Below, piece after piece: positions 15,300 to 16,175 of a DNA stretch of 64,000 nt; positions within the stretch are counted from its first letter, which is position 1, and each line of letters begins with the position of its first letter. Position numbers and translations under genes: made by a program. This stretch comes from Halovivax ruber XH-70. Its GTDB lineage: Archaea > Halobacteriota > Halobacteria > Halobacteriales > Natrialbaceae. Below the pieces are notes generated by a model. That model saw only the letters and a list, made by a program, of their open reading frames with translations, ran no database searches and had not been told where the DNA came from. Location of the stretch: the NCBI RefSeq assembly GCF_000328525.1, contig NC_019964.1, forward strand, positions 372,001 through 436,000. The letters run 5' to 3'.

Positions 15300-15374
15300 G
15301 GGCATGTAGCTCAGTCCGGATAGAGCGTCGGACTTCTAATCCGACGGTCGTGGGTTCGAATCCCATCATGCCCG
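15300..15374 (+). tRNA. tRNA-Arg, anticodon UCU
   Basis: The cloverleaf can be folded by eye. The acceptor stem is GGGCATG (15300-15306) with CATGCCC (15367-15373) and discriminator G. The D stem is GCTC/GAGC. The anticodon stem is TCGGA/TCCGA with loop CTTCTAA, so the anticodon is TCT at 15335-15337, reading AGA (and AGG). The T arm is around GGGTTCGAATCCC. No intron is needed and CCA is not encoded. Its 3' part is repeated downstream at 15454-15477. Confidence 0.95.
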
Positions 15375-15453
15375 CTAATTCTGTTGCGAGCGACAGCGAG
15401 CAACGAATCGAGGATCGTGTGGGATTCGAATCAGGGAGGAGCTTTGCTCCGAC

Positions 15454-15477
15454 CGTGGTTCGAATCCCATCGTGCCT
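15454..15477 (+). repeat. Partial duplicate of the tRNA-Arg 3' end (putative att site)
   Basis: The sequence CGTGG-TTCGAATCCCATC then GTGCCTG repeats the tRNA T-arm and acceptor 3' strand (15350-15374) with three or four differences. Direct repetition of a tRNA 3' end is what tyrosine-recombinase integration leaves behind. The 80 bp between the copies hold an invertible GGAGC-TTT-GCTCC hairpin and the GCGAGC-rich sequence often seen next to haloarchaeal tRNA genes. Confidence 0.6.
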
Positions 15478-16175
15478 GTGCGAAAACTATTGGTTTAGCG
15501 TTTCTACCTGTAGCTAATAGCCAATCCCTCAGACGACTGAATTCGGTCGATTGCCGATCAAAATCCTTCCCTCTCGATTGGGTGCCCGTTCAACTGCGTA
15601 ACGCGCCCCTTCGCAGTCCCCTGGTTTTTGGTGTTGGATTGTGAGGGACGTGGAGGTGGTCGGCGTGACGTTCTCCGACGCGGAGATTCGACGTCTCCTG
15701 GAGAACGAGTCGATCAATCCTGAGCCGGGAAAGAGTCGCGAATTCCGCTGTTCGGAGTGCCGTGCACGGTGTACCGTCCTCCTCGACGGACACTCTGAGG
15801 CCGGTCATGCGCGCTCGTGTTCCCGTCGACTCGAGCGGACGGGCTCGTATCGAACGTGTCCATCGGCATCCTGTGAAGTTGGGACGCAGCAATGACGAGG
15901 TTCGTTCCGGCTTCGACGCTTTACCATGTCGAGTCACGGACGTCCGTCCCGCACCCTGCAATCACGAACTCGGAGACAGCAGTACACGATTCGCTGGTCG
16001 AATATCGGGGGTGATCCGGGGTGAGCCGTGTCGTAGAGCGAGACTGCCTCCCGGTGTGGGAGTCCGTCTCTGCATCCTGCCCACTGTGTCCAGAGTGTTC
16101 TCGAGAGATCAACCGCGTCCGAGGATATCGCGACTCTGAAAAATCGGTTTAAGCGGGCTCGGCTATTCTGTCGCC
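15478..16175. other. About 700 bp without a convincing gene, after the tRNA scar
   Basis: Only short frames are present. The best is a GTG-initiated 84-codon frame at 15641-15895 (+) with FSDAEIRRLLENE and a Cys cluster CSECRARC, whose second half degenerates into Ser/Arg-rich sequence. I regard this as possible remnant coding DNA, not a secure gene. No transposase or integrase motif was found. Confidence 0.45.
15641..15895 (+). CDS. Doubtful 84-aa ORF with CxxC motif
   Basis: GTG start. The first 45 codons look protein-like: a beta strand VEVVGVTFSDAEIRRLLENE, then SREFRCSECRARCTV, suggestive of a small zinc-binding fold. The rest (HSEAGHARSCSRRLERTG) looks like random high-GC translation. 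It could be the 5' remnant of a decayed accessory gene next to the tRNA att repeat, or chance. Confidence 0.22.
   Translation: MRDVEVVGVTFSDAEIRRLLENESINPEPGKSREFRCSECRARCTVLLDGHSEAGHARSCSRRLERTGSYRTCPSASCEVGTQQ

Follow-up and report, generated by a model that had tools for sequence, protein, structure and literature searches.

At the tyrT locus of Escherichia coli, a single bacterial locus, the rtT repeats lie behind a tRNA gene and each carries the tRNA 3' end. REP and BIME sequences are short repeats that combine a tetranucleotide with an imperfect hairpin and are accompanied by a RAYT, a Y1 transposase of the IS200/IS605 type, and integrons have a core site of the form G/TTRRRY. In archaea, tyrosine recombinases use att sites in tRNA genes, the 3' end of which is repeated in direct orientation further downstream (PMC8371274), and the casposase of A. 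boonei has the tRNA-Pro 3' end as its target and requires TCAAATC upstream of the site that is duplicated (PMC6614799). In Methanopyrus kandleri, about half of the tRNA genes are followed at a distance of about 10 bp by a palindrome that was reported to be specific to that organism (PMC5217627), and partial tRNAs of Hqr. walsbyi have been reported as prophage-associated (PMC3119063).

The window analysed here, a 64,000-nt stretch of the Halovivax ruber XH-70 genome, holds a single tRNA gene, tRNA-Arg(UCU), behind which lies a unit with the layout tRNA tail (A), hairpin (H1), inverted T-arm (B), hairpin (C) and tail copy (A'). As at archaeal att sites, a direct copy of the tRNA 3' end lies downstream of the gene, but there is no element or integrase, and what is found behind about half of the tRNAs is instead a unit of ~100 nt with hairpins of its own. 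The M. kandleri palindrome likewise stands behind about half of the tRNAs; however, it is short and lacks copies of the tRNA tail. In contrast to rtT, the units are class-wide and occur behind many tRNAs, each cognate to its own, and they possess an inverted arm and common modules. Some C modules start with GTAG or GGAG and so recall REP sequences, but the units of H. ruber are strictly found at tRNA tails, and no Y1 transposase was found in three unit-rich genomes (G010, G027 and G037).

The unit behind tRNA-Arg(UCU)

Both ARAGORN (15300-15374) and the Rfam family RF00005 (end at 15374/5, 74.1 bits) called tRNA-Arg(UCU), and apart from the tRNA nothing in Rfam exceeded its gathering score at this locus. 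The original prediction held that the 3' end of this tRNA recurs downstream in the same orientation with a hairpin in between, and a repeat search bore this out: 15353-15372 and 15457-15476 are identical at 19 of 20 positions, at a spacing of 104. In an in-register alignment the tail TTCGAATCCCATCATGCCCG is repeated as TTCGAATCCCATCGTGCC from 15459, and the two tail copies are ~84 nt apart. What had been overlooked in this anatomy is an inverted copy of the T-arm, B. The features are as follows:

15300-15374, + strand: tRNA-Arg(UCU), called by ARAGORN and by RF00005 (74.1 bits)
15355-15374, + strand: tail A, T54 to the discriminator, TTCGAATCCCATCATGCCCG, the 3' part of tRNA-Arg(UCU)
15375-15420, + strand: H1 segment, consisting of a T-rich start, the hairpin GTTGCgagcgacagcgaGCAAC (15383-15404) and a linker, read from the sequence
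15421-15430, + strand: B, the 10-nt inverted T-arm copy GGGATTCGAA, left arm of hairpin H2, from the repeat search and the 10-bp pairing extent in 183 distinct units
15431-15458, + strand: C module in its short form, TCAGGGAGGAGC TTT GCTCCGACCGTGG, inner hairpin of H2, from sequence and fold
15459-15477, + strand: A', the direct tail copy, right arm of H2, from sequence and repeat search
15641-15895, + strand: small CxxC zinc-finger-like ORF of 84 aa, directly beyond the unit, with a homologous frame in congener G003

The stem of H1 is GTTGC..GCAAC (15383-15404). B pairs with A', so that B-C-A' forms one long hairpin, H2, and a 201-nt stretch of the locus folds 6.1 sd below shuffles. A near-identical H1 lies behind tRNA-Arg(UCU) in the congeners G002 (in its second unit) and G004, and the nearest relative of the C module is in the first unit behind the same tRNA in G002. 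With its short C form, the unit is absent from the matches of our covariance model R1; we assign it to the family described below because of its position, its B and A', and the ends TCAGGGAG..GACCGTGG, which it has in common with longer forms such as that of tRNA-Ser(CGA).

Within the genus, tRNA-Arg(UCU) is followed by one unit in H. ruber (G000), one with a different C in G001, two in G002, H1 and a broken remainder in G004, and no unit in G003. Since a homologue of the zinc-finger-like ORF directly follows the tRNA tail in G003, this genome represents an empty site, a relative of the kind that the original prediction had called for. For the same reason the flank past the tail copy is ancestral, and the following 9 kb, which had been suspected of being an element bounded by the repeat, are therefore not delimited by it. 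A third copy of the repeat, proposed to lie further downstream, was absent from the next 1.5 kb. Nor did the suggested neighbouring integrase gene appear: the genome encodes three PF00589 proteins (integrases), none of them next to the tRNA-Arg(UCU) array, no integrase was found among the ten proteins at 13.4-26.6 kb of the window, and the ~84 nt between the two tail copies hold neither an integrase nor an element.

Distribution of the units

DNA searches of four congeners showed that tRNA-Arg(UCU) and other tRNAs are followed there by units of the same anatomy, and when all tRNA loci of the H. ruber genome were checked, more than half proved to have their own tail repeated one to three times downstream. 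Under one fixed rule, H. ruber has 34 units behind 23 of its 40 tRNAs and G001 has 32 units behind 21 of 38. A simpler test of shorter reach, applied to two congeneric genomes, showed that 43 of 81 tRNAs have a tail copy 40-190 nt downstream and that none of the 81 has one in the 150 nt upstream, which excludes chance repeats. Every tail copy fitted its own tRNA best (34/34 in H. ruber and 32/32 in G001), with an identity of.97 versus.62-.63 to other tRNAs. B also best matched its own tRNA for 29/34 units in H. ruber and 24/32 in G001, which exceeds all 2000 permutations.

The covariance model R1 matched 28 distinct sites in H. ruber at E values up to 1, 27 of which are at tRNA 3' ends; the remaining site follows a tRNA-like gene that the tools overlooked. 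A C-core pattern scan, judged by eye, revealed no tRNA-independent C module of the GCGAGC type in this genome. At about 2792121-2792211 of its contig C1 (L295 1378-1468) there is a type II tRNA-like gene that both ARAGORN and RF00005 overlooked and that is followed by a unit with a cognate tail; its acceptor stem is intact (GGAAGGG/CCCTTCC), and its anticodon loop is unusual, with ~12 nt. In a sample from many genera that was enriched for matches, 188 tRNAs carried a total of 206 units, in arrays of 0 to 5 units per tRNA. The units are short (about 60-250 nt), built of hairpins and without room for a gene, and a T-rich start stands behind most tails.

R1 had matches in 286 of 292 Halobacteria genomes, representing 74 of 77 genera, in a search that scored no more than 16 candidates in each genome; units were not detected in G018, G057, G130, G196, G218 and G277. 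All 22 positive genomes in a phylum-wide draw of 148 belong to the Halobacteria, with no match outside the class and two Halobacteria also without one. One 28-nt C core recurs unchanged at 56 sites, spread over about 50 haloarchaeal records, and the 50 sites that could be assigned belong to tRNAs of 21 anticodons and nearly always precede the matching tail, where tails behind CTTCGG, which the C-core table mis-registers, were read by eye. One contig labelled Bacteroidetes QS_9_68_14 (L359, PXTT01000074.1) contains a haloarchaeal-type tRNA-Val with a unit and is probably a mis-binned contig of a hypersaline MAG.

Among plasmid records there were seven matches. Of the six examined, units accompany a tRNA or tRNA-like gene in two, and in the other four a C hairpin lies outside a tRNA context. 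The former are L404, with a plasmid tRNA-Gly(UCC) and a unit, and L403 (2400-2580, a Natrinema thermotolerans plasmid), where a degenerate tRNA-Glu-like sequence, ARAGORN-negative, is followed by a cognate unit. The latter are the haloarchaeal plasmids L401, L402, L405 and L406, with the C hairpin GAAGTCGCAGCCCGC..GGACCGTCTTC around 2400-2600; in three of these four it lies in the variable central part of a different repeat, CAGAAAGGGCGAGGCC..GAGGGCTTTC, which has matches in 121 plasmid records and none in Rfam.

Hairpin structure and array polarity

Across 183 distinct units, the outer helix of B-C-A' spans 10 bp, from T54 to C63, beyond which pairing is near background. The inner stem has the form NNNAG-T-CG / CG-T-CTNNN and varies with compensation, as in CCAG/CTGG, CGAG/CTCG, GAAG/CTTC, ATCAG/CTGAT and ATTAG/CTAAT. 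Covariation was evaluated in 23 units, in which 38 cells had changed on both sides versus 15.1 in shuffles (0/500), and structures obtained by sliding the hairpin had far weaker pairing. Each unit thus ends in two pairs of inverted boxes whose structure is better conserved than their sequence, and the boundaries are very regular, with tail copies running from T54 to the discriminator and a B of 10 nt.

At drifted tail copies, the sequence to which B is complementary is that of the tRNA 18 times and that of the copy 7 times. B was thus set against the tRNA when the unit was born and, since B ignores changes of the tail copy, the outer pairing is not maintained afterwards; the idea of selection on the outer pairing of H2 was weakened accordingly. 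A strand test compared A>G changes giving G.U (61/593) with T>C changes giving A.C (12/486; p=1.5e-7, tRNA strand), where about half of the G-U excess comes from the first helix pair, at which one module type has a fixed G.U. This result says that the tRNA-sense single strand matters, as RNA or as single-stranded DNA, with the first pair giving half of the signal. A tail variant with one extra C, TTCACAATC, is present in 16 units of several tRNA types, including the Lys, Thr, Phe and Pro arrays of H. ruber, G001 and other genomes; the extra C is an extrahelical base in the hairpin, and the variant is apparently carried along with the C module.

When H. ruber was compared with G001, whole units had been gained or lost at tail boundaries in the Glu, Cys, Ala(CGC), Tyr, Gln and Met arrays, and the order of units was swapped at Val(CAC), Lys(UUU) and Ser(UGA) and, for H1, at Ile, although such differences in order can also be explained by loss from longer ancestral arrays. 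The last tail copy was worse than the first in 22 arrays and the reverse held in 2 (p=7e-5), with 0.20 mismatches in the nearly perfect first copies and 1.07 in the decayed last copies; homogenisation of inner copies could account for part of this polarity. C modules are common to unrelated tRNA genes, and for 32 of 66 units the nearest C relative lies behind a different tRNA. Exact or near-exact tandem duplicates of units occur at Arg(CCU) in G002 and at Met in G001.

Origin of the units

The arrays are like integron cassettes in standing behind a fixed primary site, in their changes of order and in their polarity from that site, and the imperfect end hairpin, with its outer and inner arm pairs, a tip that varies and a structure conserved above sequence, is attC-like. 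The unit junction G/TTCRA also resembles the integron core site G/TTRRRY. In contrast to integrons, however, the primary site would be the tRNA T-loop, arrays stand behind many tRNAs of one genome and match in each case the tRNA in front of them, the units hold no ORF, and IntI was not found beside the array of tRNA-Arg(UCU). With no IntI and no cargo genes, the arrays are not integrons.

We tentatively read the 178-bp feature at tRNA-Arg(UCU) as a single unit of class-wide tRNA-tail cassettes that enter at the tRNA T-loop, have an integron-like layout and polarity and are driven by a recombinase, a joint reading that we consider credible but short of probable. A new unit would enter the T-loop of the tRNA itself, at the junction G/TTCRA, the incoming tail copy would restore the tRNA, and the old tail would be pushed outward, much as a cassette is captured at integron attI or a spacer at a CRISPR leader. 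B-C-A', whose outer arms are T-loop boxes and whose inner arms are AGTCG/CGTCT, may act in single-stranded or cruciform form as the substrate of a recombinase, with a tyrosine recombinase of the Xer type as the likeliest candidate. Since simple movement of cassettes between tRNAs would bring non-cognate tails, and none was present among the 34 units of H. ruber and the 32 of G001, this reading needs an extra exchange step: exchange at T-loop boxes of roughly 8 nt, common to most tRNAs, would swap C modules and leave the tRNA-specific outer parts cognate. Repeated entry could then build up the polar arrays at roughly half of the tRNA genes, and intact first and decayed last tail copies (22 arrays to 2) fit a newest unit next to the tRNA. 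In character the units appear to be passengers, selfish or neutral. Held more tentatively again is the wider proposal of a class-wide haloarchaeal cassette system, an archaeal counterpart of the integron, in which the tRNA gene would serve as attachment site and leader for a recombinase of T-loop hairpins.

As to enzymes, Cas1 is absent from H. ruber and present in only 19 of 59 Halobacteria genomes, among them G018 and G057, which have no detected units. Reverse transcriptase (PF00078) was found in none of the 59 genomes, and Y1 transposase in 38 of them, though not in the unit-rich G009, G010, G027, G032 and G037. The presence of these three families does not track the units, and a requirement for any of them was not supported. 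Tyrosine recombinases are the remaining plausible class, with three in H. ruber and none tied to arrays. A PF00589 integrase lies about 2.7 kb downstream of a tRNA-Ala(GGC) with one unit in H. ruber (G000:C1:867049-870374), and an integrative element beside this array is possible.

The main rival to cassettes entering at the T-loop is enzyme-free exchange and template switching, in which template switching, slippage and homologous recombination act at T-loop palindromes common to all tRNA genes, with hairpins and inverted repeats arising by fold-back synthesis and direct copies by tandem duplication. The tandem duplicates in G002 and G001 point to such an origin, as does the failure of any tested enzyme family to track the arrays, and common T-loop boxes on both sides of C would favour ectopic exchange. 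The very regular boundaries, the consistent polarity of decay, the restriction to Halobacteria of units at T-loops that are universal, and a covarying inner stem (AGTCG/CGTCT), which implies that C is recognised, nevertheless make this origin rather unlikely. If the units were instead functional RNA, as structured 3' trailers of tRNAs that serve in termination or processing or yield small RNAs through tRNase Z cleavage at both tails, the T-rich start behind most tails, the strong fold and the G-U excess on the tRNA strand (with about half of it from the first pair) would be accommodated. However, even congeners differ in whether a given tRNA has a unit, roughly half of all tRNAs are without one, B fails to track changes in the tail copy, and Rfam holds no family here beyond tRNA, all of which render a functional RNA improbable.

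The original prediction had seen at tRNA-Arg(UCU) an integration scar, left by an excised element or by one of several nested events; an integrative element would have had its attB in the 3' end of the tRNA and have since been lost by excision. The direct repeat and the empty site of G003 fit this account, but it does not survive the finding of the same anatomy behind about half of the genome's tRNAs and across the class, with a conserved hairpin and a cognate inverted arm inside the unit, no integrase near and an ancestral flank past the copy. In addition, a blastn search of 50,697 phage records with one unit returned no match, and a stricter C-core pattern gave 33 matches in viral contigs, all by chance and none with the inverted arm. 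We consider a scar very improbable and largely refuted. Hardly credible at all is a CRISPR- or casposon-like origin, in which the tRNA tail would be the target site that a Cas1-type integrase duplicates whenever a unit is inserted. The layout of repeat (tail), unit and repeat, the putatively newest end next to the tRNA and the degenerate terminal repeat are all as in CRISPR arrays and tRNA-targeting casposons, and the A. boonei casposase does target a tRNA-Pro 3' end with a need for TCAAATC (PMC6614799). Against this, the units consist of an inverted target copy and a conserved hairpin family rather than foreign spacers, B is left unexplained by Cas1 insertion, and Cas1, with the distribution given above, has no association with the units.

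No description of units at tRNA tails turned up in a search of open-access papers, and an older account in a subscription journal is possible; the hairpin unit family behind haloarchaeal tRNAs appears to be undescribed. None of the known kinds compared here accommodates the units. They constitute a repeat family that accompanies roughly half of the tRNA genes in an archaeal class with a long history of study, and they point to precise, repeated insertion that leaves essential genes working, with a CRISPR- or integron-like polarity without the enzymes of either system. Many short att-like tRNA copies in haloarchaea, which might be misread as borders of prophages or islands, can be accounted for by such units. 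The question that they raise is which enzyme or replication process places cognate hairpins at tRNA T-loops. If the reading as a cassette system is true, haloarchaea would possess an archaeal integron counterpart built on tRNA genes.
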